From a virus, in the IMG/VR virus record IMGVR_UViG_3300028025_000793, positions 1 to 39,572 of that record: a stretch of 39,572 bases of DNA. One strand, given 5' to 3'. Below, one piece after another: positions 2,903-30,188 of this stretch; position 1 is the first letter of the stretch, and the number at the start of each line of letters is the position of its first letter. Position numbers and translations under genes: made by a program. The notes beneath the pieces were generated by a model, which worked only from the letters and a program-made list of their open reading frames with translations, was not told the origin of the DNA and did no database searches.

Positions 2903-3799
2903 ATGGCAATTAAATCCGTCAAAAATGGCACCCGTAGCATTTCTATGCTTGTGGGTAATGCGTTCTACAACCCTGTTCCACCAACCGTTGAATACTTAGT
3001 TATTGCTGGCGGTGGTAGTGGTGGAACAATTGCAGGAAATGTTGGAGCAGGTGGCGGTGGTGCAGGTGGATACAGAACAGCATCAGGATTTGCTGTTACT
3101 TCAGGAACGCCAATAACAGTAACAGTTGGAGCGGGAGCGGCTGGAGTAACTTACAACCCTGGCGTAGATAATGATGTAAGTGGGTTACAAGGTTCTAATT
3201 CAGTTTTTTCTACTATAACTTCTATAGGCGGAGGTGGTGGTGGTGCTAATTCTACAGGTGGCACTGGCGGTTCAGGTGGTGGTGGTAATAGCGGAACAGG
3301 GTCAGCAGGTTTAGGAACAGCAGGACAAGGCAATAATGGTGGTGCAGTTACATCAGGTAATGCCGCAGGTGGCGGCGGTGGTGGTGCTGGAGCAGTAGGA
3401 ACAAACGGCAACAGTTCAACGGACACTGGTGGAAATGGTGGTGCTGGTTTAGCATCTTCAATTACAGGAACTTCCGTAACTAGAGCAGGTGGCGGTGGTG
3501 GTGGTGCTTATTATGGAACTGCGGGTGCAGGTGGAACAGGTGGTGGTGGAGTAGGCTATTCAGTTGCAACACCAACTGAAAGAAAACCAACCGCAGGAAC
3601 AGTAAATACTGGAAGTGGTGGTGGAGGTATGGGTGGAAACTCTAACACTTCTTCAGGAGCAGGCGGTTCGGGGTTTGTAGCCATTCGTTATTCTGATGCT
3701 TATGTATTAGCGGCATCAACAACAGGTTCGCCAACAATTACAACATCAGGTGGATACAGAATTTATGAATGGACAGGAAGCGGGAGTATAACTTTCTAA
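2903..3799 (+). CDS. Glycine-rich tail adhesin, paralog 1
   Basis: A 298-residue protein. A 30-residue N-terminal segment ('MAIKSVKNGTRSISMLVGNA') is followed by a 'VEYLVIAGGGSGG' strand, then about 220 residues dominated by Gly-Gly-X runs, a 'SGFVAIRYSDAY' strand and a C-terminal 'TTSGGYRIYEWTGSGSITF' closing motif. This layout is the Gly-rich domain architecture widespread in tail fibres and receptor-binding proteins of aquatic phages. Polyglycine helices form a distal adhesin tip, with host range set by the loops between them. No Cys in this paralog. It is followed by TAATG overlap with paralog 2. The opposite strand carries a long Pro-rich frame that is only a shadow of the Gly codons. 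Confidence 0.75.
   Translation: MAIKSVKNGTRSISMLVGNAFYNPVPPTVEYLVIAGGGSGGTIAGNVGAGGGGAGGYRTASGFAVTSGTPITVTVGAGAAGVTYNPGVDNDVSGLQGSNSVFSTITSIGGGGGGANSTGGTGGSGGGGNSGTGSAGLGTAGQGNNGGAVTSGNAAGGGGGGAGAVGTNGNSSTDTGGNGGAGLASSITGTSVTRAGGGGGGAYYGTAGAGGTGGGGVGYSVATPTERKPTAGTVNTGSGGGGMGGNSNTSSGAGGSGFVAIRYSDAYVLAASTTGSPTITTSGGYRIYEWTGSGSITF
2954..2982 (+). repeat. 29-bp direct repeat shared by Gly-rich paralogs 1 and 3
   Basis: A 29-base identical stretch encoding 'GNAFYNPVPP' occurs here and again at 5152-5180 in paralog 3. A second block of about 24 identical bases (encoding 'LASSITGT') is shared by the same two genes near 3448 and 5659. Such identity in otherwise diverged adhesin genes is what one expects from gene duplication followed by recombination at the conserved ends. 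Confidence 0.7.
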
Positions 3800-4716
3800 T
3801 GAGTATCTCTAGCGTAAAAACAGGTTTGATTGTTGATGAATTTTTAGCGGGTAATGCGGCATACATTCCACAAGTATCATCTGTTGAATATCTTGTTGTT
3901 GCAGGGGGTGCTGGCGGTGGTGCTGGCACGAACAATTTTAACATTTGGGTTGGTGGCGGTGGCGGTGGTGCTGGCGGTTATAGAACTGCTAGTGGTTTAT
4001 CAGTAACTCCAGGTTCTCCTATAACTGTAACTGTTGGTGCAGGCGGTGCTGGCGTAAATGATGATCAAGGCGCTAATGGAAGCAACTCTGTTTTTGGTGC
4101 AATTACTTCTACGGGTGGAGGTTTTGGCGGCGGAAATAACATAACAACTGGCAATACTGGTGGTTCAGGTGGTGGTGGACAAGGCAGAGCAGGTAGCGGT
4201 GTAGAACAAGGTGCGGCTGGCGGATCTGCTACTAGCGGACAAGGCAATACTGGTGGAACTGGATCTTTTACAACTGATAGCGCCGCAAGCGGCGGTGGTG
4301 GTGGTGGTGCTGGATCGGTTGGAAATAATGGAAGCGGTGGCACAGGTGGAAACGGTGGTTCAGGATTAAGTTCTAGTATTTCAGGTTCATCTGTAACTTA
4401 CGCTGGTGGCGGTGGCGGTGGTGCAAGTAGTACCGCTGGAACAGGTCAAGCAGGTGGTGGAAATGGCAGTAATTCCGTTGGAGTAAATGGTTCAAACGCA
4501 ACCGCCAATACTGGTTCAGGCGGTGGTGGTTCAGGTAGGCCAACTCACGGTAGTTTTACTTCAGCAAGAGGCGGTAATGGTGGTTCAGGTGTTGTAATTA
4601 TTCGTTATGACAGTTCATTGCCTGCGGCAACATCAACAACAGGTAGCCCAACTGTTACAACATCAGGTGGATTTAGAATTTATCAATGGACAGGATCAGG
4701 TAGTATTACCTTCTAA
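3799..4716 (+). CDS. Glycine-rich tail adhesin, paralog 2
   Basis: A 305-residue protein starting at the ATG of a TAATG overlap with paralog 1; the start gives 'MSISSVKTGLIVDEFLAGNA', aligning with the other two paralogs. The layout is the same: 'VEYLVVAGGAGGGAG', Gly-rich core from about residue 35 to 265, 'GVVIIRYDSS' strand, Ala/Thr hinge and the conserved ending 'TTSGGFRIYQWTGSGSITF'. No Cys. The N-terminal segment is more diverged than between paralogs 1 and 3. Predicted to be a distal tail adhesin/receptor-binding protein. Whether all three paralogs are assembled together or are alternative tips cannot be read from sequence. Confidence 0.75.
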   Translation: MSISSVKTGLIVDEFLAGNAAYIPQVSSVEYLVVAGGAGGGAGTNNFNIWVGGGGGGAGGYRTASGLSVTPGSPITVTVGAGGAGVNDDQGANGSNSVFGAITSTGGGFGGGNNITTGNTGGSGGGGQGRAGSGVEQGAAGGSATSGQGNTGGTGSFTTDSAASGGGGGGAGSVGNNGSGGTGGNGGSGLSSSISGSSVTYAGGGGGGASSTAGTGQAGGGNGSNSVGVNGSNATANTGSGGGGSGRPTHGSFTSARGGNGGSGVVIIRYDSSLPAATSTTGSPTVTTSGGFRIYQWTGSGSITF

Positions 4717-4729
4717 GGAGAAATAAACA

Positions 4730-5101
4730 ATGGCGCACTTTGCACAACTAGATGAAAACAACACGGTACTCCAGGTAATTGTTGTTGCTAATGAAGAACT
4801 ACTTTTAGATGGCGTTGAGAACGAGACTAAAGGTATTTTGTTTTGCAAATCTTTATTTGGTGAAGATACTAAGTGGGTTCAAACTTCTTACAACGGCAAC
4901 ATACGCAAAAATTATGCTGGCATTGGTTACACATATGATCCAATTGCAGATCACTTTTTTGCTCCATCACCTTTTGCATCATGGGTATTAAATGCTGATG
5001 CTCAATGGGAAGCACCTGTTGCTAAGCCAACTGACGGCAAAAAATACACATGGAATGAAGATACTCAGGAGTGGGATCTAGTAACAACTGAAGGTGCATA
5101 A
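4730..5101 (+). CDS. Conserved aquatic-phage tail-region protein
   Basis: A 123-residue protein preceded by AAGGAG. It opens with 'MAHFAQLDENNTVLQVIVV' and contains 'WVQTSYNGNIRKNYAGIGYTYD' (split here across residues about 56-77) and 'SWVLNADAQWEAPV.KP.DGK.YTWNEDTQEW'. I recognise this pattern from many cyanophage and pelagiphage genomes, where it lies among structural genes close to tail fibres; its function is not established. The Trp-rich C-terminal half resembles a small carbohydrate- or protein-binding fold, but that is a guess. It sits between two glycine-rich adhesins and overlaps the next gene by one base, so a role in adhesin assembly or attachment is likely. Confidence 0.65.
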   Translation: MAHFAQLDENNTVLQVIVVANEELLLDGVENETKGILFCKSLFGEDTKWVQTSYNGNIRKNYAGIGYTYDPIADHFFAPSPFASWVLNADAQWEAPVAKPTDGKKYTWNEDTQEWDLVTTEGA

Positions 5102-6018
5102 TGGCTTGCATTAGCGTTAAAAATAAAATTATCAGCCGCAGTATGCTTGTAGGTAATGCGTTCTACAACCCTGTTCCACCTACTGTAACGCTTTTGCAAA
5201 TTGCAGGTGGTGCTGGCGGTGCTGGTGGTTGCTCAAGTGGAGGTTCAGGCGGTGGCGGCGGCGGTGCTGGTGGATATATTTCAACAACTGCATCTATAAC
5301 CCCAGGAACTACTTACACAATTACAGTTGGCGCGGGTGGCCCAGGTAGAGCAAGAGATACCTGTGGTGGTGGTGCTGGAAGCAATAGTTCTGCTTTTGGT
5401 GTTACGGCATCTGTTGGTGGTGGTGGTGGTGGTATTGGTAGTCCTGGTGCTGGTGGCGGTTCAGGTGGCGGTGGTGGCGGTAGAGGCAGTGCGGGTATTA
5501 GATGTGGTGGAAGTGGAACCGCAGGACAAGGTTTTGCTGGTGGTTCAGGTGGCAGGGCTGGTGGCGCTGGTGGCGCTGGTGGCGGTGGCGGTGCTGGAAC
5601 CGTTGGCGCAAGTAGTTCAAGAGCATGCAATTCTTATGGTTACAACGGAGGTAGCGGTTTAGCATCTTCAATTACAGGAACATCTGTAACACGCGCTGGT
5701 GGAGGTGGAGGTGGTTCTAACTGTGGTGATCTTGGTGGATTAGCAGGTTCAGGCGGAGGCGGTGTAGGTGGTAGAGGTAATCCCAATAACACTAACGGAA
5801 CCGCAGGAACAGCAAACACAGGTTCAGGTGGTGGCGGTGGAGGAGGTAGAGGTTGCAACGGTTCTTCCGCTGGTGGTAACGGTGGATCAGGTGTAGTAAT
5901 TATTAGTTATTCAGATGCTTATTCTGCGGCTTCATCAACTACTGGTTCACCTACAATAACCACATCAGGCGGAAATAGAATTTATCAATGGACAGCATCA
6001 GGCAGTGTTACTTTTTAA
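5101..6018 (+). CDS. Glycine-rich tail adhesin, paralog 3 (cysteine-containing)
   Basis: A 305-residue protein with the same architecture as the genes at 2903 and 3799. It has an N-terminal 'SMLVGNAFYNPVPPTV' segment nearly identical to paralog 1, a Gly-rich core (about residues 38-265), a 'GVVIISYSDAY' strand and the closing 'TTSGGNRIYQWTASGSVTF'. It differs in carrying seven Cys, six of them inside the Gly-rich core in short contexts such as 'GGCSSGG', 'DTCGGG', 'IRCGG', 'RACNS', 'SNCGD' and 'RGCNG'; the other two paralogs have none. The cysteines could form disulfides or bind metal at the tip. Predicted receptor-binding protein. Confidence 0.75.
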   Translation: MACISVKNKIISRSMLVGNAFYNPVPPTVTLLQIAGGAGGAGGCSSGGSGGGGGGAGGYISTTASITPGTTYTITVGAGGPGRARDTCGGGAGSNSSAFGVTASVGGGGGGIGSPGAGGGSGGGGGGRGSAGIRCGGSGTAGQGFAGGSGGRAGGAGGAGGGGGAGTVGASSSRACNSYGYNGGSGLASSITGTSVTRAGGGGGGSNCGDLGGLAGSGGGGVGGRGNPNNTNGTAGTANTGSGGGGGGGRGCNGSSAGGNGGSGVVIISYSDAYSAASSTTGSPTITTSGGNRIYQWTASGSVTF

Positions 6019-6083: not shown

Positions 6084-6785
6084 ATGAAAAAAATTATATT
6101 TACCGATACTCACAATCCTGATGGGGTATTAAAAAAACCTCAACCTGCTTCAGATTACATACCTGAATGGTATAAAAAAGCCATTCCGTATGTATCTCCT
6201 GACGGTAAAAAAGCACCAACTTTAGATGGAACACCTACGGCAACTATAAAAAGATGCATGCCTGTATTTGACATGATGACCGCTGGATACATTATGGAAA
6301 CTCCATATGATATTTATGTAAGACAAACTGAAACAGGGCCGTATTTTCAATGGGTTGAACAACCTGCCGTGGCGTTTCAGGCTATGGCGCAATTTCAAAA
6401 TCACCCTTATTCAAGAGACATAAATTACGCAGTGCGGATTGAAATTCCCTGGAGCATCAAAACTCCTAAAGGTTGGTCAATTATGGTGATGGAACCTCAA
6501 CACCGTGAACCAGGGCCAATAGAATGTTCTAGCGGAATTGTAGATACAGATGATTTTTCAATACCTTTTAATATGTTTCTTAAATTACGCGATTCTAAAT
6601 TTGAAGGAATGATCCCTGCGGGTACACCATTTTTACAAATTATTCCTTTCAAGCGTGAGGCGTGGGTATCTGAATTAGGTGGCAAAAAAGAAAGAGAAAA
6701 ATATCAATCTGATTGGCGTAAGTTTCTTACGGTATTCTTTGACCGTTACAAGAAATTTTGGTGGGTGAGAAAAGAGTATAAATAA
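6084..6785 (+). CDS. DUF6065-like protein of unknown function
   Basis: A 233-residue protein with a strong ribosome site (AGGGGG before ATG), starting a new block after a 65-base gap. The C-terminal half reads 'GWSIMVMEPQHREPG', then 'SGIVDTDDFSIPFNMFLKL' and 'IPAGTPFLQIIPFKREAW'. That order (GW strand, G(I/V)V(D/E)TD turn, GxPFxxIxPxxR strand) matches what I know of DUF6065-type proteins and of a family frequent in aquatic phages. The 'GIVDTD' and 'GTPFLQIIPF' motifs also recall the layout of dUTPase-type beta barrels, though the catalytic signature is not convincing. No signal peptide or membrane segment. Function unknown; enzyme, tail component and host-takeover protein are all open. Confidence 0.5.
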   Translation: MKKIIFTDTHNPDGVLKKPQPASDYIPEWYKKAIPYVSPDGKKAPTLDGTPTATIKRCMPVFDMMTAGYIMETPYDIYVRQTETGPYFQWVEQPAVAFQAMAQFQNHPYSRDINYAVRIEIPWSIKTPKGWSIMVMEPQHREPGPIECSSGIVDTDDFSIPFNMFLKLRDSKFEGMIPAGTPFLQIIPFKREAWVSELGGKKEREKYQSDWRKFLTVFFDRYKKFWWVRKEYK

Positions 6786-7888
6786 TGGCAACTACCTATC
6801 GCTATTTATTTGTAGATTTATTAAGCAATACCATTATTGGCGAATTGCCTCTAACTGATGTTTCTTTTACTCAGCAACTAAATCAACCTGGAGTATTTCA
6901 AGGTCATTTACTTTTGTCGGGCGTAAACGCTAATAAATACAATGTAAGCGCATCTACTATTCCCGCTAATTGTGGGCTGTATGTAGATCGTGATGGCATA
7001 TTGGTATGGGGTGGGGTCATTTGGGGCCGCACATATAACAGCAATTCACAGACGCTTACCTTTAGCGCTCAGGAATGGATCTCGTATTTTGACCATAGGC
7101 GGGTCACGCAAGATGTTGATTTTGTAAACATTGATCAATTAGTAATTGCTAAAACTCTTATAGAAGATGCACAAACTGCAACCTATGGTGACATAGGAGT
7201 TGGCTATAACAGTGCAGGGCAGACAACATCAGGGGTATTGGTAAGCCGAACTTACTATAACTATGAATATAAAAATGTATTTCAAGCAATTCAAGATCTT
7301 AGCCGTCAAGCAGATGGTTTTGATTTTTCAATTGATGTTGAGTATGACGCTATTACAGATCTGCCTGTTAAAAACTTTAACACTTATTTTCCGCGTAGTG
7401 GTTTGGTTTATTCATACGGTGATCCAAATGTTCCTGTATTTACATTTCCCGCAGGCAACATGGTTGAATATGAGTACCCTGAAGATGGTTCAGTTGTAGC
7501 CAACACGGTTTATGCACTAGGCGCTGGATCTAATGAAGGCAAGCAATTGGCAACAGGACAAGACACTACATTATTGCTAGATGGTTGGGCTTTGTTAGAA
7601 ACAACCGCTAATTATTCAGACATTACAGATCAAACGGTTTTGCAAGAATTGGCAACAGCCCAGGCTCGCGCAACTTCTTATCCTCCTACGGTACTTAAAG
7701 TTGTAGTGCCTGCCTATGTAGATCCTGTTTTTGGAACCTACCAATTGGGAGATGATGCTCGTATTATTATTACGGATAGCCGTTTCCCAAATACGCTAGA
7801 TGAGATTTATCGCATTGTGGGCTTAACCGTTGAGCCAGGTGAAGATGGGCCTGAGCGCGTAACCTTAACTCTTGCACAAGGAGCGTGA
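6785..7888 (+). CDS. Minor tail protein, baseplate hub-like (ReqiPepy6 gp37-like type)
   Basis: A 367-residue protein overlapping the previous stop by one base. It opens with a beta-rich domain ('YRYLFVDLLSNTIIGELPL', 'CGLYVDRDGILVWGGVIWG'), then 'FSAQEWISYFDHR', and a middle domain with 'YKNVFQAIQDLSRQADGFDFSI'. The C-terminal part has 'YQLGDDARIIITDSRFP' and 'YRIVGLTVEPGEDGPERVTLTL'. This is the pattern of actinophage minor tail proteins related to T4 gp27-like hubs: an adaptor ring at the tail tip to which spikes or adhesins attach. It is placed after the adhesins and not right after Dit, which is unusual but seen when adhesin cassettes are inserted. Confidence 0.7.
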   Translation: MATTYRYLFVDLLSNTIIGELPLTDVSFTQQLNQPGVFQGHLLLSGVNANKYNVSASTIPANCGLYVDRDGILVWGGVIWGRTYNSNSQTLTFSAQEWISYFDHRRVTQDVDFVNIDQLVIAKTLIEDAQTATYGDIGVGYNSAGQTTSGVLVSRTYYNYEYKNVFQAIQDLSRQADGFDFSIDVEYDAITDLPVKNFNTYFPRSGLVYSYGDPNVPVFTFPAGNMVEYEYPEDGSVVANTVYALGAGSNEGKQLATGQDTTLLLDGWALLETTANYSDITDQTVLQELATAQARATSYPPTVLKVVVPAYVDPVFGTYQLGDDARIIITDSRFPNTLDEIYRIVGLTVEPGEDGPERVTLTLAQGA

Positions 7889-13971: not shown

Positions 13972-14639
13972 TTGACCTACAAAACATGGTTGCAAAAACT
14001 TTAGTAGCCAATGACAATGCCAGGGCTAGATCTAAACAGGTAGAAGTTGGCCCGTCATCTGTTGGTGGTTGCCACCGTAGGCTTTGGCATGATTTAGCCA
14101 TGACAGAGCCAACAAATGATGGTGACAAATTAGGAGCAATTCTAGGAACCTTTATTCATACAGGGCTAGAAGAAGCCATAAGGCGTGAAGATCCTTTTGG
14201 TGTGCAATATGAACTAGAAATATCTGTTGAATATAAAGGTATGCCTGGACATGTAGATTGCTATGACAAAATCAACCAAACCGTCATTGATTGGAAAACC
14301 AATAAAAAAGGTGGCGCTCGCTATTTTGGCAAAAACAATAGGCAACAAATTTGGCAAATACATTTGTATGGGTATTTGCTAACTAAAAACGGATACACAG
14401 TAAAAGATGTTGCGCTGGTTGGAATACCGCGTGATGGCAAAATGAAAGACATTATGGTTCACACAGAACCTTATGATGAGGCTATTGCATTAGATGCTTT
14501 GGCGCATTTAGATATGACAAGGCAAATGGTGATTGACAATTTAAAACCTTCTCCTGAAAAACCATTGGCTTTTTGTGCAGATTTTTGCCCTTACTACGAT
14601 CCGACAGGAGAACAAGGTTGTCCGAGTATCAAAAAATAA
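13968..14639 (+). CDS. Fe-S PD-(D/E)XK exonuclease, Cas4/RecB-like
   Basis: A 223-residue nuclease from the ATGA overlap start at 13968. RecB-type active site: 'GHVDCYD' (Asp97) and 'VIDWKTNK' (Asp108, Lys110), followed by a 'QIWQIHLYGYLL' helix like motif Q of this family. Four Cys (Cys35 in 'GGCHRRLW', Cys203, Cys207 and Cys218 in 'CADFCPYYDPTGEQGCP') are spaced as in Cas4/AddB-type nucleases that hold a 4Fe-4S cluster. Probable 5'-3' exonuclease that makes single-stranded ends for the annealing protein encoded at 11759. No CRISPR genes are nearby, so adaptation is not implied. Confidence 0.8.
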   Translation: MIDLQNMVAKTLVANDNARARSKQVEVGPSSVGGCHRRLWHDLAMTEPTNDGDKLGAILGTFIHTGLEEAIRREDPFGVQYELEISVEYKGMPGHVDCYDKINQTVIDWKTNKKGGARYFGKNNRQQIWQIHLYGYLLTKNGYTVKDVALVGIPRDGKMKDIMVHTEPYDEAIALDALAHLDMTRQMVIDNLKPSPEKPLAFCADFCPYYDPTGEQGCPSIKK

Positions 14640-14986
14640 ACGGATCTGACTATTCAAAAGTTAATTGGAATGAGGCTGAATGTAGAAAGTTAGAAATCTA
14701 CACGGACTTATTTTATGAAGTAGAGGAAGAACGATCTAGTAACGCCTATGACCATATAAACGCTTTGCGTGGGATCTGCGCTTCTTGTCCTATTTGGCAA
14801 GATTGTTTAACCTACGCTTTCAAAAACGAGCAGTATGGAATGTGGGGCGGTTTAACAAGTCAGGAGCGCATTAGTATGGTTCATACAGAGCAATACCCCA
14901 ATCAGCGTTCTAGGGCTTTAAAATCTTTGAGATCTTTAGGAATTACGGTGCAGGAAATTAGACAATGTTTGAAGGAGAAAAAATGA
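14618..14986 (+). CDS. WhiB-family transcriptional regulator
   Basis: A 122-residue protein starting at TTG 14618, chosen because AGGAG lies seven bases upstream and no ATG or GTG gives a sensible length; it begins inside the end of the nuclease gene. Diagnostic WhiB features: four Cys (Cys22, then Cys54, Cys57 and Cys63 in 'CASCPIWQDC') for a 4Fe-4S cluster, and the turn 'YGMWGGLTSQER' (residues 73-84). A C-terminal basic helix follows ('NQRSRALKSLRSLG'). WhiB proteins occur only in actinobacteria and their phages, bind the principal sigma factor and reprogram promoters. Likely early-to-late or host-takeover regulator. Confidence 0.88.
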   Translation: MSEYQKINGSDYSKVNWNEAECRKLEIYTDLFYEVEEERSSNAYDHINALRGICASCPIWQDCLTYAFKNEQYGMWGGLTSQERISMVHTEQYPNQRSRALKSLRSLGITVQEIRQCLKEKK

Positions 14987-19947: not shown

Positions 19948-20463
19948 ATGGTAGAAAAAACACTCAATGAAGTAGAATTACTACAACGCGAGAGCGAAAT
20001 AGTAGAACTACGCACTGAGGGTTATGTATGGCGTGAGATTGCTCAGAGAGTAAACATGAGTACGGCTGGAGTGGCTAAGGCTTATGACAGGGCATTAGAG
20101 CGGATTATTGCCCCTGCGGTAGAGCAACACAGAACCACAGAGTTAGATCGCTTAGACATTCTCCAACGCGTGTATTGGCAACCTGCAATCAATGGCAATT
20201 TAAGAGCGGCAGATTTTGTATTACGCGTAATTGAAAAGAGAGCAAAATTACTAGGCTTAGATGCCGCGATAAAGATTCAAACAGAGGTGGTTACATATGA
20301 CGGATCAGATCTTGACGCCGAAGTTGAAAAGTACGCAAAACTCATTGAAGCAGGAACTCTCAGATATAGAGATGATGTTGCAACCATCACCGAACTCACG
20401 GATCAAGGCGAGCAGATGGATATGGAAGCACAAACTGGCCAGGAAGGAACAACTACCTCCTGA
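19948..20463 (+). CDS. Terminase small subunit
   Basis: A 171-residue protein. The ATG at 19948 is chosen; a TTG at 19912 would lie in the promoter. N-terminal HTH: 'IVELRTEGYVWREIAQRVNM' then 'STAGVAKAYDRALERI', which binds the packaging start site. The middle region, 'LDRLDILQRVYWQPAINGNL' and 'VLRVIEKRAKLLGLDAA', is the helical oligomerisation core typical of these subunits. The acidic/Gln-rich C-terminus is encoded in the 167 bases shared with the large subunit gene. Confidence 0.8.
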   Translation: MVEKTLNEVELLQRESEIVELRTEGYVWREIAQRVNMSTAGVAKAYDRALERIIAPAVEQHRTTELDRLDILQRVYWQPAINGNLRAADFVLRVIEKRAKLLGLDAAIKIQTEVVTYDGSDLDAEVEKYAKLIEAGTLRYRDDVATITELTDQGEQMDMEAQTGQEGTTTS

Positions 20464-21727
20464 AGGTGATTGGAACATTTGGCTTGCAATGGCAGGCCGT
20501 GGATTTGGCAAGACACGCTTAGGCGCAGAAGAAATAGCCTGGCAAGCAATACTGCAACCCGCTACACGGTGGGCAGTTGTAGCCCCTACATTTTCTGATG
20601 CAAGAGATACATGCGCAGAGGGTGAGTCAGGCATAGTTGCAATCTTGCAACGCTACCGAATGTTGGACAACTACAACCGCTCTCTTGGTGAGATCTTGCT
20701 CAAGAACGGATCTAAGATTAAATTATTTAGCGCAGACAACCCTGAGCGCTTCCGTGGCCCACAGCATCATGGAGCCTGGTGTGATGAGTTAGGTGCATGG
20801 CGCTATCAAGATGCCTGGGATCAATTACAGTTTGGATTGCGTTTAGGTCAAAAGCCACGAATTATTGTTACAACCACACCGCGCTCTACCGCTCTTATCC
20901 GCATGCTTGCAGGGCGTAAAGACGGATCTGTTGTTATCACCAGGGGATCTACATTTGATAACGCCGCAAACCTTGCCCCTAGCGCTCTTATTGAATTGCA
21001 AGCCCGTTACAACGGCACACGGTTAGGTAGGCAAGAGTTATACGGTGAGATTCTTGATGATGTTGAAGGCGCATTGTGGACTAGAGGTTTAATTGATCGC
21101 ACACGCATTGAAGTAGCACCAACTATGGCCCGTATTGTTGTTAGCGTAGATCCTGCCGTGACTAACTCAGAGAAGTCAGATGAAACAGGCATTGTTGTTG
21201 TTGGCTCTACATCAGATGGACAAGGCTATGTGTTGGGAGATTACTCATTTAGAGGATCACCGTTGCAGTGGGCTACAAAGGCAGTAGAACTATTTGATTC
21301 ATACAAGGCAGATGCAGTTTTGGTTGAAGTAAACCAGGGCGGTGACATGGTGGGCGCAGTGCTAAAGCAAGTACGGCCAACATTGCCAATCAGAGAAGTG
21401 CGAGCGCATATTGGAAAGAAACTACGCGCTGAACCAGTAGCGGCTATGTATGAGCAAGGCCGTATTCACCACATTGGTGAGTTAGCGGCGTTAGAAGATC
21501 AGATGTGTACCTGGACAGTTGATGAACCAAACTCACCTGACCGCATTGATGCAATGGTGCAAGGCTTTAGCGATCTGTTAGGAAAAGTTACAGTGAGCAA
21601 TTACTTTAACGCTATTGCTAATCATTGCCCTAGTTGCGGATTGCCTATGCCTAAATCATTTACACATTGTTCAGCATGTAGAAGCGCTATGATTAGCACA
21701 AATTCTGAAGTACCACAGGGAGCGTAA
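20297..21727 (+). CDS. Terminase large subunit
   Basis: A 476-residue packaging ATPase/nuclease. Start at ATG 20297 supported by GAGGTGG six bases upstream; ATG 20372 is an alternative. Walker A 'GRGFGKT' (residues 67-73), Walker B-like 'AWCDELGAW' (Asp163/Glu164), coupling 'IIVTTTPRS', and RNase H-like nuclease residues in 'VVSVDPAVTNSEKSDETGIV' and 'PDRIDAMVQGFSDLLG'. The last ~40 residues add a zinc-ribbon-like 'HCPSCGLPMP...HCSAC' tail, not usual in the family. It overlaps the small subunit gene by 167 bases. Confidence 0.92.
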   Translation: MTDQILTPKLKSTQNSLKQELSDIEMMLQPSPNSRIKASRWIWKHKLARKEQLPPEGDWNIWLAMAGRGFGKTRLGAEEIAWQAILQPATRWAVVAPTFSDARDTCAEGESGIVAILQRYRMLDNYNRSLGEILLKNGSKIKLFSADNPERFRGPQHHGAWCDELGAWRYQDAWDQLQFGLRLGQKPRIIVTTTPRSTALIRMLAGRKDGSVVITRGSTFDNAANLAPSALIELQARYNGTRLGRQELYGEILDDVEGALWTRGLIDRTRIEVAPTMARIVVSVDPAVTNSEKSDETGIVVVGSTSDGQGYVLGDYSFRGSPLQWATKAVELFDSYKADAVLVEVNQGGDMVGAVLKQVRPTLPIREVRAHIGKKLRAEPVAAMYEQGRIHHIGELAALEDQMCTWTVDEPNSPDRIDAMVQGFSDLLGKVTVSNYFNAIANHCPSCGLPMPKSFTHCSACRSAMISTNSEVPQGA

Positions 21728-22272
21728 TGGCCGACAATTACAACACAATAATTGATCAAGGCTCCGATTGGTTTCGCAATTTCCTGTACACACAACCTGC
21801 AACTATTACAAACGCAGTAGGCAACGGCACAACAGTTACATACACGGCAGAAAACGGATTTAGCGCAGGGCAAACTGTTTACATTGAAGGCATCATGCCT
21901 AGCCAATACAACTTAGGCAATGTAACAATTGCATCACGCACCGCATCACAATTTACAGTTACTAATCCTGCCACTGGTTTGTACATTCAAGGCGGAGATG
22001 CATTAAGCGCAGTAAACATTACTGGTTACACAGCCCGTATGCAGTTGCGCTCGCTACCTAATGACACAATTGCAGTTCTAACATTGACAGAGACAAGCGG
22101 CATTACAATTGATGGGCCTAGTGGAACTCTTGCAGTACGAGCAACAGCGATACAGACAGCGGCTATCATTGCAGGCCCGTATTATTACGATTTAGAAATA
22201 ACATCACCCGCTGGCATTAAAACGCGTATTGTTCAGGGTGAATTAAATGTAAATGCAGAGGTGACAAGATGA
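21727..22272 (+). CDS. Small structural protein with FCCH-like insert
   Basis: A 181-residue protein beginning at the TAATG junction with terL. The start 'YNTIIDQGSDWFRNFLY' and the ending 'GPYYYDLEITSPAGIKTRIV' are typical of small beta-rich phage proteins that attach to fibres or baseplates. Residues about 30-90 form a separate beta module ('TVTYTAENGFSAGQTVYIEG', 'VTIASRTASQFTVTNP') resembling the FCCH-type domain found repeatedly in viral structural proteins. It overlaps the collagen-like gene by four bases, so it may be its anchor. Confidence 0.6.
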   Translation: MADNYNTIIDQGSDWFRNFLYTQPATITNAVGNGTTVTYTAENGFSAGQTVYIEGIMPSQYNLGNVTIASRTASQFTVTNPATGLYIQGGDALSAVNITGYTARMQLRSLPNDTIAVLTLTETSGITIDGPSGTLAVRATAIQTAAIIAGPYYYDLEITSPAGIKTRIVQGELNVNAEVTR

Positions 22273-24407
22273 CATACAACCCAAATAACTTTTTAAACAA
22301 TCCAAATCCTGTTGGAACTCCAAATGTTATTGTTGTAACACCTGGCCCTATGGGGCAACAAGGTGTGCAGGGTATTCAAGGTATTTCAGGTAACTTCTCT
22401 GCTCAAGGTACGCAAGGTACACAGGGTTTACAAGGCGGCGGTTTTAACCAGGCACAAGGAACACAAGGTTTACAAGGCCCACAAGGAATAACAGGCGTAC
22501 AAGGTGCTAATGGTTTACAAGGTGTAACAGGTGCGCAAGGAACAACAGGTACACAAGGTTTAACTGGTGTTCAAGGTGTATTAGGTACGCAGGGTGCTAT
22601 TGGTGCAGGCATACAAGGCACTACTGGTACTCAAGGTTTAATAGGCATACAAGGATCAATTGGAATACAAGGCACAACTGGCGCTCAAGGTGTTCAAGGA
22701 TTAACAGGAACACAAGGCGCAATTGGAATTCAGGGTTTAACTGGTATTCAAGGTACGCAGGGTGTCTTAGGAGATACTGGTACACCTGGAACACAGGGAA
22801 CAATAGGATCTCAAGGTTTAACTGGTGTGCAAGGCGCTGTTGGTAACAACGGATCACAGGGAACAACAGGCAATACAGGATCTCAGGGTACAACTGGCAC
22901 ACAGGGCTTAACGGGTGCGCAAGGTACGCAAGGAATTCAAGGCAATGACGGAACACAGGGCATAACTGGTACTCAAGGAGCAACTGGTACACAAGGAACG
23001 CAAGGTGTGCAAGGTGTTAATGGCACACAAGGCGTAAATGGAACTCAAGGTATAACAGGTGCGCAGGGTTTAACTGGAATACAAGGTGTTACAGGCTCTC
23101 AAGGGCTAGATGGAATTCAAGGCACTGTTGGAGCGCAAGGAACACAAGGCGTACAAGGAACTATTGGTAGCCAGGGTGTTCAAGGCGTAAATGGTATTCA
23201 GGGTGTGCAAGGTAATACTGGTGCAAGCGGTACATCATCATCTATTTTTGATTATCTAGCAAGAACTAACTCACAAACACCTCCACCTAATGCTGGTGAC
23301 ATTAAATGGGATAATGCTACGCAGATCAGTGCAACAAACATTTATGTATCTCATTTAACAGACTCAAATGTGGACATTGATTTTCTATTAGCAAACATTA
23401 AAAACGGTGACATCTTCTTTATTCAAGATAGAAATAACTCTAATAACTATCAAGAATGGCAAGTAAACGGCACACCTACAAATGTTCCTAACAGTTACTT
23501 TACTTTTCCTGTTGCGCTCTTAGACTCAAGCGGAACAGGCACAACAGACTTTGCAAACGGTCACCCAATTTCTCTTATTACTCAAAGCATTGGTGTTCAA
23601 GGAGTTACTGGTGCGCAGGGTACGACAGGCGCGCAGGGAACTCAGGGCTTGCAGGGCGTTCAAGGCACTACTGGAATTCAAGGAACAACTGGAACGCAAG
23701 GACTTGTTGGCGCTCAGGGTCAAACAGGAACCCAGGGCATTGAAGGCTTGCAGGGTACTCAAGGAGTTCAGGGTGTAACTGGTTCTCAAGGACAAACTGG
23801 ATCACAAGGCTTAGACGGTATTCAGGGAACTGTTGGCGCACAAGGTTTAACTGGATCTCAGGGTATTACTGGCACACAGGGAACAGTGGGCGCGCAAGGT
23901 TTAGAAGGCTTGCAAGGAACTCAGGGAACTCAAGGTGTTCAAGGATTAACAGGTAGCCAGGGAACTAACGGAATTAACGGAACACAAGGCACTCAAGGAA
24001 CTCAAGGACTTGAAGGTTTGCAAGGTGTCACTGGATCTCAAGGTACTACTGGAGTAAACGGAACTCAGGGAACAACTGGTACTCAAGGACTTAACGGAAT
24101 TCAAGGAATTGAAGGACTACAAGGAATTACTGGTACGCAAGGTGTTCAAGGCGTAACAGGATCTCAAGGTGCTACTGGTGATACTGGTATTCAAGGAGTT
24201 CAGGGAACAACTGGAATTCAAGGTGCTAATGGAACTCAAGGAACGCAAGGAGTTCAAGGGTTACAAGGGTTGCAAGGAACTGATGGCCTACAAGGTACAA
24301 CTGGTTTACAGGGTATTACTGGAACAGGCACACAAGGTACTCAAGGTACTAGCGGTGTATCAACACCGATTCCATTTCAGGTTGGTTTAATGCTAGGTGG
24401 TATGTAA
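22269..24407 (+). CDS. Collagen-like fibre protein
   Basis: A 712-residue protein. Short non-repetitive N-terminus (1-25), then Gly-X-Y triplets to about residue 322, a globular insert (about 325-441, '[13 protein letters not shown]...', '[19 protein letters not shown]'), a second triplet block to about 695 and the end '[15 protein letters not shown]'. Triplets are mostly G-T-Q, G-L-Q, G-I-Q, G-V-Q and G-X-T/N: Gln- and Thr-rich with little Pro. Such triplets can form trimeric stalks. Known phage collagen-like proteins are fibres or neck/side appendages. Ends exactly where the minus-strand gene ends. Confidence 0.85.
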
Positions 24408-25082
24408 CTAGCGAACCCACAGCATGCCAACATCAGCCGTTGGCCGCAGGTTTGCTACTTTCCAACCGCCATCAATCCATTCATCTGATGTGAGTTGATG
24501 CCAGGCATTTAATTGATTGACATTGTTTGGTTGCATATTGCCCCACACTTTAGGCTTTTGTAAATGATCAACAATGTATTGCGCGGCCATTTCTCTGTAA
24601 CCTAATGTGTATAAATAATCTAATTGATCTTCATGCTCATGCATGGTTTCAAATGTCCACTCAAAACAGATCATGCCTCCATAATGGCGGGTCATACCTT
24701 TCATCACTTGCCACTCAGCACCTTCAACATCAATCTTGATAAGATCAGGACTGCCGTATTTGTCTGCAAGGGTGTCAATCGTAATTGTGTTTACTTCAAC
24801 CTGACGGTGAGGCTTTCCTTTATATGGCATGCCGTCTTTAGTTAGCCAATCTTTATTTAGCGTACTTAATCCATCTTCATCTGCCTCATAAAACTTGATG
24901 CGTTGGTCATCTAAGTCACTCACAGCCATTCTTAAAGGGGTTACATGGGAGTTGTAGATAAAGTTCCCAACCAACTCTGCAAACACGCGTGGGGCCGCTT
25001 CTAAGGCTACAACGCGGTATCCCTGGTTTAACCCTGCAAGCACTGCATCACCGCGGTTAGCCCCAATATCAAACAGAAGCAT
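24408..25082 (-). CDS. FkbM-family SAM-dependent methyltransferase
   Basis: A 224-residue enzyme; ATG 25082 is chosen because GAAAGGA lies six bases upstream (an earlier in-frame ATG at 25097 adds five residues). FkbM hallmarks: 'MLLFDIGANRGDAVLAGL' (SAM-binding GANRGD), 'YRVVALEAAPRVF' (acidic residue for SAM ribose), 'PDLIKIDVEGAEWQVMKGM' and 'ICFEWTF'. FkbM enzymes usually O-methylate sugars or polyketides. Overlaps the TPR gene by 14 bases. Its stop touches the collagen-like stop with no bases between, and no terminator is seen there. Confidence 0.85.
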   Translation of the reverse strand: MLLFDIGANRGDAVLAGLNQGYRVVALEAAPRVFAELVGNFIYNSHVTPLRMAVSDLDDQRIKFYEADEDGLSTLNKDWLTKDGMPYKGKPHRQVEVNTITIDTLADKYGSPDLIKIDVEGAEWQVMKGMTRHYGGMICFEWTFETMHEHEDQLDYLYTLGYREMAAQYIVDHLQKPKVWGNMQPNNVNQLNAWHQLTSDEWIDGGWKVANLRPTADVGMLWVR

Positions 25083-25632
25083 TGGCAATCCTTTCAAGGT
25101 TGTGTTTGACGGCCTGGCGATACCCAGGTTCTAAGTACATGGCGTTTAATTTATTAAATATCTCAACGCTTTCATCTTTGCGACCTATCCACCAGGCGGC
25201 TACTGCCTTCTCAAAATACAAAACATATTGGCCTTCAAAACCAACGCTTACAGGTAGAGGTGAATTCAATTGCTGACGCAATCCTATGCTTGCCCAGGTG
25301 TAACACTCTTGCCACTGACCTAAACGCTCATGGAATTGGGCTAAAAGGAAATAACCTTCAGGGCGATATGGCAAGAAAGCGACAGCCTGCAATAAACAAT
25401 TAGTTACAGTGGCCTGGCGGTCATTTTGATCATCAAAACAATGTGCTACTTTCAATAGAGATGTGTACACAAGGCTAGGGTGTGACTCAATCCCATATTC
25501 AGCCGTACGCAGATAGAAAGAAACGGCTGATGCGGTTTGATTTTGCTTTTCGTACTCAACTGCTACATCAAAATTAAGCGTAGGATTAAATGGATCTTTG
25601 GATAGTTCTATAACTAATTCCTCAATTTTCAT
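25069..25632 (-). CDS. TPR-repeat protein
   Basis: A 187-residue all-helical protein with tetratricopeptide repeats: 'NPTLNFDVAVEYEKQNQTAS', 'EGYFLLAQFHERLGQWQECY', 'KAVAAWWIGRKDESVEIFNK' and the short 'YRQAVKHNLERI' cap. Such repeats often follow or are fused to glycosyltransferases (GT2, OGT-like) in cyanophages and bacteria, and bind protein or sugar-modified partners. AAGGAGG lies nine bases before the ATG. The start overlaps the preceding gene of the operon by 11 bases. Confidence 0.75.
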   Translation of the reverse strand: MKIEELVIELSKDPFNPTLNFDVAVEYEKQNQTASAVSFYLRTAEYGIESHPSLVYTSLLKVAHCFDDQNDRQATVTNCLLQAVAFLPYRPEGYFLLAQFHERLGQWQECYTWASIGLRQQLNSPLPVSVGFEGQYVLYFEKAVAAWWIGRKDESVEIFNKLNAMYLEPGYRQAVKHNLERIANASV

Positions 25633-26623
25633 ACGCTAGTGCCTCCTTAATCAGATCTTCAACTACACACCCTGGTACTTGCAATACAAAAGCGGCGTTA
25701 TCTTGAAAACCAAACGAAAGTAAAAGGTTGCCGTTATGTACTGCCGCCCCCACACAGAACTCAACGCGAGCATCTAGGAATGAGAATTCCTTACTTAGCC
25801 CTACAACATTGAGTTCCTGATCCCACACAACAAGGCGGTGGCGATAGATAGCATCTTTTTGTTTGAGGTAATTCTTAAATAGATCTACTTCATGGGTTAC
25901 AGAAATGTACATGTTGCCCCACCGTATGACCTGACTAGATCCACGCTGATCTTTAGGCGCTGGAATTGTGTGGCGCACAAATACTTGCTCACATTCTCCG
26001 CTTAATGGATTTGCGTACACTAATTCTGTTGGCATAGTCCATTTGATAAAGTGATATGGCTTATCTACAACAGGAACCCAATTTTTCTCACAATAAGATG
26101 TGTTTGGCTCAGGTGCTTTGATGCGCACACGCCTAGCCTCTTTAACAGTCCAATTATCCCAATCAATTTCTATACGGCTGTATTCCATGCGCCCCTGGCC
26201 ATTGGTTGTTGTATCTCTACGCACTCCGACTAGGTAGTAATCGCCTAACCACTGCACAACACGGCAATCTTCTTCACCTACAAACTCCCACAGAGGCGCT
26301 ACATCTAATTCAGATGTGTCCACTTTGGTGTGATGGGTCATTTCAAGATCATCATTCAGGCGGCACAAATAATTAACCGTGACTAGACGGTGATCTTTTT
26401 CAGGGTGCAGATATGACAATGGCCCAAAACGGCTAGGAAATTGTTGATTGTTTTCTGCATGGTAAAGCGTGTAATTAACATGCCGTAGGTTCACTAAGAT
26501 ATGCCCGTCATCATCAATAAAAATTGATGGGTTCATCAAACCTGTACCAGTAGTTAATCCGTGAGGAATAACCAAAGGTGCTAACTTGCCTCCATAATGA
26601 ACTGCCTTTTCCACTAAGTTCAT
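25622..26623 (-). CDS. Glycosidase-like five-bladed beta-propeller protein
   Basis: A 333-residue protein from ATG 26623; upstream in-frame codons exist (Met at 26662, 26746) but the segment before 'MNLVEKAVHYGGKL' does not look like protein and runs into the portal start. Blade-like motifs: 'MNPSIFIDDDGHILVNLRHV', 'EEDCRVVQWLGDYYLVGVRR', 'YCEKNWVPVVDKPYHFIKWT', 'GSSQVIRWGNMYISVTHEVD' and 'LLLSFGFQDNAAFVLQVP'. The 'EKNW.P' element is typical of GH43/GH130-like and related sugar-active propellers. It may cleave, bind or transfer glycans. Ribosome site not seen; a TATTGT hexamer lies seven bases before the ATG. Confidence 0.65.
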   Translation of the reverse strand: MNLVEKAVHYGGKLAPLVIPHGLTTGTGLMNPSIFIDDDGHILVNLRHVNYTLYHAENNQQFPSRFGPLSYLHPEKDHRLVTVNYLCRLNDDLEMTHHTKVDTSELDVAPLWEFVGEEDCRVVQWLGDYYLVGVRRDTTTNGQGRMEYSRIEIDWDNWTVKEARRVRIKAPEPNTSYCEKNWVPVVDKPYHFIKWTMPTELVYANPLSGECEQVFVRHTIPAPKDQRGSSQVIRWGNMYISVTHEVDLFKNYLKQKDAIYRHRLVVWDQELNVVGLSKEFSFLDARVEFCVGAAVHNGNLLLSFGFQDNAAFVLQVPGCVVEDLIKEALAYEN

Positions 26624-26706
26624 AAGCGTTACAATACATGAACTGGCAGAAATCGCTATCATTGCAACACGCCTGATTTCTAAGGGGCATAACAAGGGAG
26701 ATACGC

Positions 26707-28554
26707 ATGGGTCTGCGTGACCGTATCGCAAGAGCAATAGCAACAACTAACATTGAAAAAGGCCCTAATCTGCCTGCGGGTGCAACAACAATTGGCACTG
26801 ACGCGTTGATGGCACAAAGCGGTTTAGCAATGCAACAGACTTATGGCAACAATGTGGCTCTCCCACGCGCACCATTTAGCGCAACAGTTCCATTTGGCCC
26901 AGGCAATCCAATTATTCCTGGTGCAATTAACCCAATCAATCCTGCAACAGGCCGACCTGAACCGCGCCGTTATGAATACCAGGTTGCTCAAAACATCAAC
27001 ATTGTTCCAACGCGGTTGGTTCCATTTTCAACATTGCGAGATGCGGCAGACAGCATAGATATTTTGCGCCGTTGCATTGAAGTAACTAAATCAAAAATGA
27101 ACGGTTTACAGTTTGACATTGTGCTTGGTTCAGATGCATCAGAAAAGATTGCGGCTGAGTCAGGTGGCGATCATGTGCGCGCTATGGCTAAGGCCCGTGA
27201 AAAATACACAGATGAGATTAACCGCATGCGAGAGTTTTGGGAAAACCCTGACAAAGCAAACGGATACACATGGCAAGATTGGATTAACATTGCAATTGAG
27301 GACATTCTTGTAATTGATGCGCTTGCCGTTTACCCACAGCCAACAGTAGGTGGAGATCTTTATGGTTTCCAAATTCTTGATGGTTCAACAATCAAACCTT
27401 TAATTGATGATCGCGGTATGCGCCCTATGCCACCTAACGCGGCTTTCCAACAGATTCTTTATGGTTTCCCACGCTCAGAATTTGCCGCAACCGAAGAAGA
27501 TCCAAAAGCAGATGGTGAATTTACTTCTGATCAATTGGCTTACATGGTGCGCAATCGCCGCTCAACAACAGTTTATGGATTTAGCCCAGTAGAGCGAGCG
27601 CTACCTCTTGCAGACATTTATCTACGCCGTCAGCAATGGATTAGAGCAGAGTACACAGATGGTGTAATGCCTGAACTTATGTTTACAACTGATGAGGATT
27701 GGGGAACTAACCCTGATCTCTTGCTTGCTTATGAGCGTATTCTCAATGATGATCTTGCTGGACAAACAGAGCAACGCAAGCGCGCTCGCCTATTGCCAAA
27801 AGGTTTAACACCTATTGTTAATGAAGGTTATGGCGAGAAGTTTAAAGACACACTTGATGATTATTTAGTTACTTCTATCTGCGGACACTTTGGTGTACAA
27901 CCTGCCGAAATTGGTTTCTCTCCTAAGAATGGATTAGGTGGGGCTGGTTATGCAGAAGGTCAGGCAGAAAATGGAGAGGCGCTAGGTATTGGGCCTCTTG
28001 CTAACTGGATCTCTAAGCAACTGACAAACCTTTCTTACACATATTTAGGTATGCCGCGTGAACTTGAATTCAAACTGCTTACATCAGAGCGCAGAGACAC
28101 AGAAGAAAACGCTCGCAAGAATGAAATTGAAGTGCGCTCAGGCGGTAAGTCAATCAATGAACGCAGATCTGAATTAGGCTTGCCATTGCTAGATACACCA
28201 CAGGCTGACATGCCAATCCTTGCAACTGGAGGGGCTGTTTATTTATTCTCACCTGATGGATTGATTGATGCGGCTACTGCCTCAGTTGCTCCAACATTAA
28301 GCGGCCCTGATGCAACACCTGATGCACCTACAACCCCTGATCCTCTTGAGCAAAAGCCATCTACTGAAGTAACACCTGAAGAAGATGAAGTAAATGAAGT
28401 AAAAGCATTTATGAAATGGGCGGCTAAGGGTAAGCGCGCAAGATTATTTGAGTTTAAAGCACTTGATCCTATTGTGGGAGATGCGCTTAACCGTTGCGCT
28501 TTTGATGGTGACATAGAAACCGCTAGGGCGCTTGCTAAGGCTTATCTAACATGA
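26707..28554 (+). CDS. Portal protein
   Basis: A 615-residue protein with AGGGAG upstream of ATG. After a low-complexity N-terminus (about 1-85, Pro/Gly/Asn-rich) comes the portal core: 'LRDAADSIDILRRCIEVTKS', 'YTWQDWINIAIEDILVIDAL', 'RRSTTVYGFSPVERALPLAD', 'QWIRAEYTDGVMPELMF' and the stem/wing region with 'ICGHFGVQPAEIGFSPKNGL'. A Pro/Thr/Asp-rich tail with a short helical end closes it. The dodecameric ring forms the DNA entry vertex. The tail overlaps the MuF-like gene by four bases. Confidence 0.88.
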   Translation: MGLRDRIARAIATTNIEKGPNLPAGATTIGTDALMAQSGLAMQQTYGNNVALPRAPFSATVPFGPGNPIIPGAINPINPATGRPEPRRYEYQVAQNINIVPTRLVPFSTLRDAADSIDILRRCIEVTKSKMNGLQFDIVLGSDASEKIAAESGGDHVRAMAKAREKYTDEINRMREFWENPDKANGYTWQDWINIAIEDILVIDALAVYPQPTVGGDLYGFQILDGSTIKPLIDDRGMRPMPPNAAFQQILYGFPRSEFAATEEDPKADGEFTSDQLAYMVRNRRSTTVYGFSPVERALPLADIYLRRQQWIRAEYTDGVMPELMFTTDEDWGTNPDLLLAYERILNDDLAGQTEQRKRARLLPKGLTPIVNEGYGEKFKDTLDDYLVTSICGHFGVQPAEIGFSPKNGLGGAGYAEGQAENGEALGIGPLANWISKQLTNLSYTYLGMPRELEFKLLTSERRDTEENARKNEIEVRSGGKSINERRSELGLPLLDTPQADMPILATGGAVYLFSPDGLIDAATASVAPTLSGPDATPDAPTTPDPLEQKPSTEVTPEEDEVNEVKAFMKWAAKGKRARLFEFKALDPIVGDALNRCAFDGDIETARALAKAYLT

Positions 28555-30188
28555 TTGAGGGCGCTCTCAAGGCAGATGGGCGCATAGCGGCAAAGAACGC
28601 GGTAAAGATTAGAGCGGCACTGCGAGAGTTAGCCGACTACAAAAAACTGTATTTGCAATACCAGGAAACTATGCCCGAAAGTTCAGGCAACCTTGCAAGA
28701 GATAGAACCCGCGCTCGCGCATGGGCAATTATGAATGTGACGCAATTGCGTACAGAGGCACTTGCCTCATCTTTATGGCGCATGTGGGCAGAGGCTTATG
28801 TTCTAGGAACCGTTGCCGCTAGTGAATGGCTACGCATAACCCGTGAACTCAACAAGGCTGATGATGATGTAAGCGTTGATTGGGATAACTGGAAACCAGG
28901 AGACAGAGCCGCAACACTTATGTTGCAAAGGCCAAAAGCATTTCAAGAAATCTTAGATTCTACGAATGTAACAATCAGAGGATTAACGCAAACTAGCATT
29001 ACAGATATAGGCAACTCATTAGCGGAAGCAATTGACTTAGGTTTAGACGCATCTAGTGCGGCGCTTTTAATTAGCCGTAATGTGGCAAGCCCTGCGCGAG
29101 CGCTAACAATTGCTATTACTGAACAAAACCGTGTTATTTCTGCCGCAACTATGGCGCGTTACAAAGAGGCTGGATTAGAAAAACAAGAATGGGCCGTGTC
29201 AGATCCTTGTGATATTTGTGCTAAAAATGATGGAACCATAGTTCCTATTGGCACATCATTTCCATCAGGAGATACCCAACCTCCTGCTCACCCACATTGC
29301 CGTTGCGTATTGCTACCTGTAATTCCTGGTATGGAAGAAGATAACAATGTTGGTGGAACAGTTACAACACCAACAACTGATACTGATGGAGCAATTGCAA
29401 ATGAACCTTTTGAACCAGGTGTTGCTCCTCAAGGCGCATGGAAACCTGTAACAGAAGATAGATGGGTAGAGCGTCAAGAGGCTATTCGTTTACAGCGCGG
29501 GCTTGGGCCTGCAAATGAAAATCATTTGCGTATTATGCGTGATCAGGTAGCAGATGCAAAAGCAATTTATGAACGCGGGCCAAACATTGTTGTTTTAGGT
29601 AATGATGTCAAAACAGTAACAGAAGAAGCAATGGAACAATTTATGAAAAACTTTGATCTTGCTTATGAAAAATTACCTGAATGGCGAAGGGTTAGCCCTG
29701 ACGGTTCTTTGAGAGGTTATTCTTTAATTATCAACAACAAAGACCGCTCCCGCTCTGCTTTGGCTTATACTTACATAGGCCATGATTCTATTTGGTTCTC
29801 TCCTGGTGATGTCACTACTTCACTAAACCTACCTAAAGATTGGGCTGGTTGGTTTATGCCTGCGGCTAATAATGTTTCTGAAAATCTTTACACAATCATG
29901 CACGAATTAGGTCACACAACAGATAGTTATGTAAATGATAATAAACGCGGGTATGTAAGAACCCGTTTAACTCGCAGGTATAAAGAATTATTCTCTAGGT
30001 ACAGTCGTAAAAATACTAAAGAAACTTATGCTGAAGTTTTTGCCCAATGGGGATTGGGTGAAAAAAACGCATTAACTGAAGCCTATTCAGAGGCATTTGG
30101 TTGGAATTTATCCGCCACAGAGTATTACGAAAAGTTTGGCGAGTTTGAGCGTTGGAAGCCTAGTATGAGACCGTCAGGAGTGCGTTAA
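28551..30188 (+). CDS. MuF-like head morphogenesis protein fused to a zinc metallopeptidase domain
   Basis: A 545-residue protein starting at the ATGA junction with the portal. Residues about 1-258 form a phage Mu gpF-like minor head domain: 'ITEQNRVISAATMARYKEAG', then the zinc site 'SDPCDICAKNDG' (Cys220, Cys223) and 'PPAHPHCRCVLLPVIPG' (His249/Cys250/Cys252). After a Thr/Pro linker (260-300) the C-terminal part (about 300-545) contains 'IMHELGHTTD' (His451, Glu452, His455: HExxH) and a downstream acidic residue in 'ETYAEVFAQW' (Glu495). This is the gluzincin-like layout. MuF proteins can carry injected toxin or effector domains. Confidence 0.82.
   Translation: MIEGALKADGRIAAKNAVKIRAALRELADYKKLYLQYQETMPESSGNLARDRTRARAWAIMNVTQLRTEALASSLWRMWAEAYVLGTVAASEWLRITRELNKADDDVSVDWDNWKPGDRAATLMLQRPKAFQEILDSTNVTIRGLTQTSITDIGNSLAEAIDLGLDASSAALLISRNVASPARALTIAITEQNRVISAATMARYKEAGLEKQEWAVSDPCDICAKNDGTIVPIGTSFPSGDTQPPAHPHCRCVLLPVIPGMEEDNNVGGTVTTPTTDTDGAIANEPFEPGVAPQGAWKPVTEDRWVERQEAIRLQRGLGPANENHLRIMRDQVADAKAIYERGPNIVVLGNDVKTVTEEAMEQFMKNFDLAYEKLPEWRRVSPDGSLRGYSLIINNKDRSRSALAYTYIGHDSIWFSPGDVTTSLNLPKDWAGWFMPAANNVSENLYTIMHELGHTTDSYVNDNKRGYVRTRLTRRYKELFSRYSRKNTKETYAEVFAQWGLGEKNALTEAYSEAFGWNLSATEYYEKFGEFERWKPSMRPSGVR

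Follow-up and report, generated by a model that had tools for sequence, protein, structure and literature searches.

What do three minus-strand genes, lodged between a collagen-like fibre gene and the portal gene of a phage, do for the virus that carries them? The window, by which we mean the whole stretch of DNA analysed, comprises the 39,572 bases of an IMG/VR virus record. The trio and its surroundings are as follows.

20297..21727, plus strand: terminase large subunit (phrog_979, 1.7e-37)
22269..24407, plus strand: collagen-like tail-fibre gene, 712 aa, the proposed acceptor (PF01391, tail-fibre PHROGs, composition)
24408..25082, minus strand: FkbM-family SAM methyltransferase, 224 aa (PF05050, TIGR01444, phrog_8156)
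25069..25632, minus strand: TPR protein, 187 aa, likely adaptor (PF13431, superhelical model, gene adjacency)
25622..26623, minus strand: GH130/GT108-like five-bladed beta-propeller protein, 333 aa (AlphaFold2 model, PDB fold matches, hhalign, column check)
26624..26706, no strand: divergent gap between propeller and portal genes, 83 bp (coordinates)
26707..28554, plus strand: portal gene, flanking the insertion (phrog_2662, 8.3e-57)

The gene trio and its setting

The open reading frames and a check of the sequence place the propeller gene from an ATG at 26623 to a stop at 25622, the TPR gene from 25632 to 25069 and the FkbM gene from 25082 to 24408, each likewise opening with ATG. The propeller and TPR genes overlap by 11 bp and the TPR and FkbM genes by 14 bp, exactly as first described. 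The terminase, collagen and portal genes all lie on the plus strand. Thus the collagen-like gene, which ends at 24407, converges on the FkbM stop at 24408 with a gap of 0 bp. The propeller and portal genes diverge, and the 83 bp between them would have to accommodate the signals from which both transcripts start. Between 24300 and 26800 no sigma-70-like site was found on the minus strand; the only site found there is on the plus strand.

The trio is not a chance arrangement, since almost all of 80 IMG/VR loci retain it and its genes evolve slowly at the protein level. Median dN/dS against relatives is 0.055 for the propeller, 0.116 for the TPR protein and 0.093 for FkbM, which indicates purifying selection. 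Its orientation is another matter. The preliminary description had the trio running against the structural operon, and this is true of the window but is no general rule. In three relatives (L035, L038 and L319) it lies between the collagen and portal genes and reads in the same direction as the structural operon. The same is seen in L047, while in most relatives of the window's terminase it is inverted. The antisense orientation is therefore specific to a lineage.

Other genes of the window are of interest in their own right. The MuF-like head protein (28551-30188, plus strand) carries an HExxH motif (MHELGHTTD) towards its C terminus, together with a weak match to the ATLF domain. In relatives it ranges from about 276 to 798 aa at 33-59% identity, far more variable than the adjoining portal, a variability that resembles that of polymorphic MuF effector fusions. 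A DUF6065/phrog_7084 gene (6084-6785, plus strand) is flanked by three Gly-rich adhesin-type genes (2903-6018) on one side and by a minor tail gene (6785-7888) on the other; its product could be a second modification enzyme. A gene for a WhiB-type regulator (14573-14986, plus strand) points to an actinobacterial host.

A propeller protein of the GH130/GT108 fold

Taken alone, the propeller sequence matched no family among the Pfam, PHROG and NCBIfam profiles, and a PDB search with it gave nothing useful. A profile of its close relatives went unrecognised as well, and hhalign failed to align that profile to a single GH130 protein. Kinship with GH130 emerged from sequence only when diverse members were used on both sides. 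The diverse profile (A5) matches phosphorylases of beta-1,2-mannobiose and of oligomannan, with the match at G-x-E-D-x-R. Against 17 GH130 proteins hhalign gives it 89.9%, with an E-value of 1.7e-6 over 254 columns. Six of 20 diverse members match PF04041 (E up to 0.1, best 1.3e-4); the window protein itself has no match, so the curated cut-off is not reached. These comparisons support a real kinship with GH130.

An AlphaFold2 model built from a 61-sequence alignment (mean pLDDT 89.9, pTM 0.90) has a five-bladed fold. Its closest solved relative in the PDB fold search is the GH130 mannoside phosphorylase 5ay9 (Z 23.7, rmsd 3.2 A, 280 residues), and the top 21 rows of that search are GH130 or GH130-like. 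Synthase and hydrolase members of GH130 score about 20-21, for instance the mannoside synthase Uhgb_MS (Z 20.8). Structure prediction and profile searches thus place the protein nearest to GH130, with GH43-type enzymes farther off (Z 16-18). The Leishmania GDP-Man mannosyltransferases of family GT108 reach Z 18.0. GT108 enzymes are five-bladed propellers, unlike other glycosyltransferase folds, and so provide a precedent for this fold as a true glycosyltransferase (PMC8476585). The Leishmania MPT proteins, which are GDP-mannose mannosyltransferases/phosphorylases (6q4x, 6q4z; Z about 18), share the fold at about 16% identity to the phage protein.

The active site can be read against that of BT3780. 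There, Asn74, Asp142 and Asp363 bind the -1 mannose, Arg89 and Glu141 contact the +1 sugar, and the mutants D142N, E141Q and D363A are inactive (PMC4599007). In the alignments these residues correspond to Asn31, Asp119, Asp308, Arg47 and Glu118 of the phage protein, respectively. The pair E118-D119 is invariant in 20 diverse members, N31 and R47 are invariant where present, and D308 is found in 19 of the 20. Further invariant residues are E179-K180-N181, R227, H244, Y260 and E288. The preliminary description had taken the propeller for a sugar-active protein, and both fold and catalytic motif bear this out.

The other side of the site is different. GH130 hydrolases use Glu227/Glu268 as base, and the phosphorylases have three basic residues instead (PMC4599007). 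In the 20 diverse members no acidic residue stands in the Glu268 column, which holds Q/L/F/P/H/I, and this speaks against hydrolysis; the column for Glu227 is less certain. A lysine, which the phosphorylases have at the Glu268 position, is missing too. The basic phosphate-binding residues of the phosphorylases are not all recognisable. The Lys of their KIG motif is replaced by Q or L, with the invariant Arg227 adjoining and Lys180 and Lys194 nearby. Lys180, in an invariant EKNW, matches Lys199 of BT3780 by eye, though not by hhalign. As judged from these columns, the family appears to have kept its sugar site and altered its nucleophile side, a pattern that a transferase would fit best.

In short, the phage protein resembles GH130 in its five-bladed fold (Z 20-24 over about 280 residues) and in its active-site Asn, Arg, Glu-Asp and Asp. 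It differs in its low identity (12-15%, below Pfam recognition), in lacking the hydrolase base Glu268, and in being viral and locked to TPR and FkbM genes. Since its nearest structures are phosphorylases and hydrolases, it might be a degradative glycosidase or phosphorylase, acting as a depolymerase or in carbon metabolism. We consider this very improbable, given the Glu268 column and the biosynthetic character of the propeller's partners.

A glycosyltransferase had been reported as missing from the locus. A Pfam scan of the 27 larger ORFs of the window recognises none, but relatives have such genes. The claim is probably wrong in substance, because the fold group of the propeller includes GT108 and the cassettes of relatives hold GT2, GT25 and GT17 domains. 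To judge from the model, the propeller itself may be the "missing glycosyltransferase".

Partners of the propeller and the reach of the family

The FkbM protein is readily recognised. It matches PF05050 (3.5e-17; 63.5 bits against a cut-off of 22.7), TIGR01444 (1.7e-22; 80.5 bits against 37.7) and phrog_8156 (1.7e-18), and it carries the motifs DIGANRGD and IDVEGAE. The TPR protein scores 25.5 bits with TPR_17 (PF13431), just over the cut-off of 24.4. Its model (pLDDT 97) is a superhelix of ten helices that matches TPR structures at Z 15-17. O-GlcNAc-transferase TPRs are found among its PDB matches and, being one of many ties, show the fold only. Profiles and models together support all three of the original assignments, namely FkbM, TPR and propeller.

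Viral relatives of the TPR fold include TPR-FkbM proteins, at identities of up to 54%, and, in phages and giant viruses, fusions of TPR with a glycosyltransferase. In other phages, TPR domains are fused to FkbM (13/36), other methyltransferases, GT2, GT25, GT17, WavE, radical SAM/SPASM or DUF6445. The idea that the TPR protein partners glycosyltransferases thus finds backing in viral relatives fused both to these enzymes and to methyltransferases. GT25-GT2, radical SAM and DUF6445 genes are also among the neighbours of the cassette in relatives. For instance, three large phages (L083:8959-11702, L113:8168-9085 and L112:11640-12236) have radical SAM/SPASM and DUF6445 proteins either next to a TPR domain or joined with it. 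Judged by domain content, these are putative further tailoring enzymes.

Propeller and TPR genes are almost inseparable. Of the propeller loci, 148 extend far enough downstream to be assessed. In 137 of them a TPR gene adjoins or is fused to the propeller gene, and in 10 more it lies within 6 kb, or 147 of 148 in all. Single ORFs combine propeller and TPR in L122 and the L157 group, and propeller and FkbM in L150 and L126. So strict a pairing, beside fibre genes, could also be that of a chaperone pair. TPR proteins are often chaperone-like, and the two might assist fibre assembly with no sugar chemistry while FkbM methylates protein. This is improbable in our judgement, because the catalytic Glu-Asp and the sugar-site residues are invariant over very diverse members, and because the domains found as partners make or tailor glycans.

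The combination is not a peculiarity of one phage; it is present in many aquatic phages, and hundreds of viral contigs carry the cassette. One scan found the propeller family in at least 588 viral stretches, and about 85,000 cell genomes gave 8 loci. Several of these are on short aquatic MAG contigs, and the cellular loci were judged to be phage-derived. Among Bacteroidota, one of the 296 genomes searched has the family. It is apparently virus-specific. The same propeller fold is found in giant-virus BFVD entries (A0A481Z9G3, A0A3G5AFP7 and A0A1V0SDN7, from a Pithovirus, a Solivirus and an Indivirus), and some of the giant-virus proteins with this fold are long and annotated as fucosyltransferase or LicD. 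The family may therefore be common to phages and giant viruses.

The nearest described examples are in the Synechococcus phages DSL-LC02 (metagenome-assembled, PMC10611076) and S-SCSM2R. Their propeller (48% identical) and TPR (42% and 34%) genes are adjacent, and DSL-LC02 has a collagen-like gene next door. These phages differ in having T4-like genomes of 168-244 kb and a TPR domain joined in one protein with FkbM and radical SAM, or with DUF6445. The proteins are annotated as beta-mannosyltransferase or MGP protein, and the cassette is not discussed there. No paper describing the propeller/TPR/FkbM/collagen combination was found in the open-access literature.

A likely target in the collagen-like fibre

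The collagen-like gene matches PF01391 (1.1e-82) and the tail-fibre family phrog_6320 (2.1e-111, a score inflated by low-complexity repeats). As first noted, it abuts the trio and is rich in threonine. Its roughly 175 Gly-X-Y triplets have Thr in 30% of X positions, Gln in 56% and Thr in 23% of Y positions, and about 1% Pro. Composition was examined in 37 non-redundant collagens of the window lineage and 36 of other lineages. Collagens near the cassette have 30-38% Thr at X, 57-66% Gln and 20-23% Thr at Y, Pro at 1-3% of X and 0.1% of Y, and low charge. In viral collagens described earlier, Pro makes up 22% and Asp/Glu 35% of X, and Lys/Arg 38% of Y; collagen helices can be stabilised by imino acids, charged residues or glycosylation of threonine (PMC3368898). 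Because imino acids and charge are both scarce here, stabilisation by glycosylation is an attractive, if putative, alternative.

Two samples independent of the cassette were used to examine the link. The first starts from relatives of the window's terminase, 59 of which reach as far as the portal gene. Of these, seven have collagen and cassette, three collagen only and 49 neither (Fisher 3.5e-7, inflated by shared ancestry), so that the cassette is present in 7 of 10 relatives with collagen and in 0 of 49 without. The seven are not one clone, since their terminase identities include 92, 91, 70 and 61%. In relatives with neither, the portal often follows straight after the terminase. The three collagens without a cassette are shorter and have no Gln signature.

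The second sample comprises contigs of at least 20 kb chosen solely by a DNA motif that encodes GTQGTQG(L)QG, with GPKGDKGD as the control motif. The propeller is present in 24 of 50 GTQ-collagen contigs and in 0 of 41 GPK-collagen contigs. The p-value of 2.2e-8 is a guide only, because there are near-duplicates among the 50 contigs and habitats are unmatched. In one further GTQ contig the TPR gene is cut at the contig edge. This sampling upholds the proposed association with collagen or fibre genes. The cassette tracks one type of collagen, with Thr at X, Gln or Thr at Y and almost no Pro or charge.

The link is not absolute. About half of the GTQ-collagen contigs have no propeller, so these collagens can exist without it. 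Contigs such as L375, L379, L390 and L420, among others, have neither propeller nor TPR; some are longer than 60 kb and some are fragments. A TPR-glycosyltransferase standing in for the propeller does not account for the propeller-less contigs, since 1 of 26 has a TPR gene (at the contig edge) and 5 of 26 have GT2. Conversely, about half of the assessable propeller loci have no collagen gene within 3.5 kb; where collagen is not adjacent, matches to tail-fibre, spike or baseplate families are frequent among the genes upstream. In L019 and L034, Gly-rich adhesin-type genes lie between FkbM and collagen. Fibre genes are thus often near, and constant co-occurrence with collagen does not hold.

These observations bear on where the sugar might go. 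The cassette could modify the surface polysaccharide of the host during infection, for receptor masking or superinfection exclusion, with its place near fibres reflecting co-inherited host-range genes. FkbM, GT2, GT25 and WavE domains are typical of surface-glycan loci, and the trio of the window, being on its own strand, could be expressed apart from the structural genes. GDP-mannose-dehydratase-type genes, present in 9 of 20 module-bearing records (mostly large phages; absent from the window), would also suit such a role. We nevertheless regard it as unlikely, because the cassette follows a type of collagen, not any fibre, and in L035, L038 and L319 lies in line within the structural operon.

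In our assessment it is somewhat more likely than not that the phage uses the trio for glycan modification of its own collagen-like fibre, or of another of its tail fibres, with a GH130/GT108-like enzyme at the core of the cassette. Because it travels with a Thr-rich, proline-free collagen-like gene, it probably puts sugars, perhaps methylated, on the phage's own fibres. The late, structural-operon position in co-directional relatives is a further point in favour.

The transferase activity, donor, acceptor, order of steps and benefit that we infer would be as follows. Working in the synthetic direction, the propeller would use an activated donor of a mannose-type sugar, either GDP-Man or a sugar phosphate, which the host would supply in small phages such as this one. 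Transfer would be inverting, would use Asp119 and the conserved sugar site, and would be directed to a fibre threonine or a primed glycan. The TPR protein would hold the enzyme on the repetitive fibre, recruit the acceptor or join partner enzymes, roles suggested by its many natural fusions. FkbM would then cap the sugar by O-methylation. The glycosylated threonine may stabilise or shield a collagen poor in proline and charge.

Modification of phage virions by glycosyltransferases and a methyltransferase is already known, as is the GH130/GT108 fold. In mycobacteriophages, phage-encoded sugar transfer and an O-methyltransferase act on virion proteins (Freeman et al. 2023, cited in PMC11600133). 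According to that secondary account, tandem glycosyltransferases there act on the capsid and tail tube. By comparison, the cassette of the window has a propeller enzyme, a likely TPR adaptor and a collagen-like fibre, without a recognised glycosyltransferase gene. What is apparently new, in that it was not found described in the open-access literature, is the strict pairing of a viral GH130-like family with a TPR partner and its association with a single type of collagen.

A broader proposal can be made tentatively, though it is less likely than not to hold. In aquatic phages, virus-specific glycosyltransferases of the GH130/GT108 fold, with a TPR adaptor, would attach sugars to threonine in (Gly-Thr-Gln)-type collagens that lack proline and charge, and the sugar would take the place of proline hydroxylation or charge as the stabiliser of the triple helix. 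Such a system would be dedicated to modifying collagen, and FkbM, radical SAM, DUF6445 and GT25 would be swappable tailoring enzymes.

The propeller enzymes are a conserved family, yet in the phage of the window they are recognised by neither Pfam, PHROGs nor NCBIfam. If the fibres are glycosylated, this would explain how proline-free collagens hold together and would represent a third design of virion glycosylation. It would also provide an experimental handle on the host-contact surfaces of abundant freshwater and marine phages.
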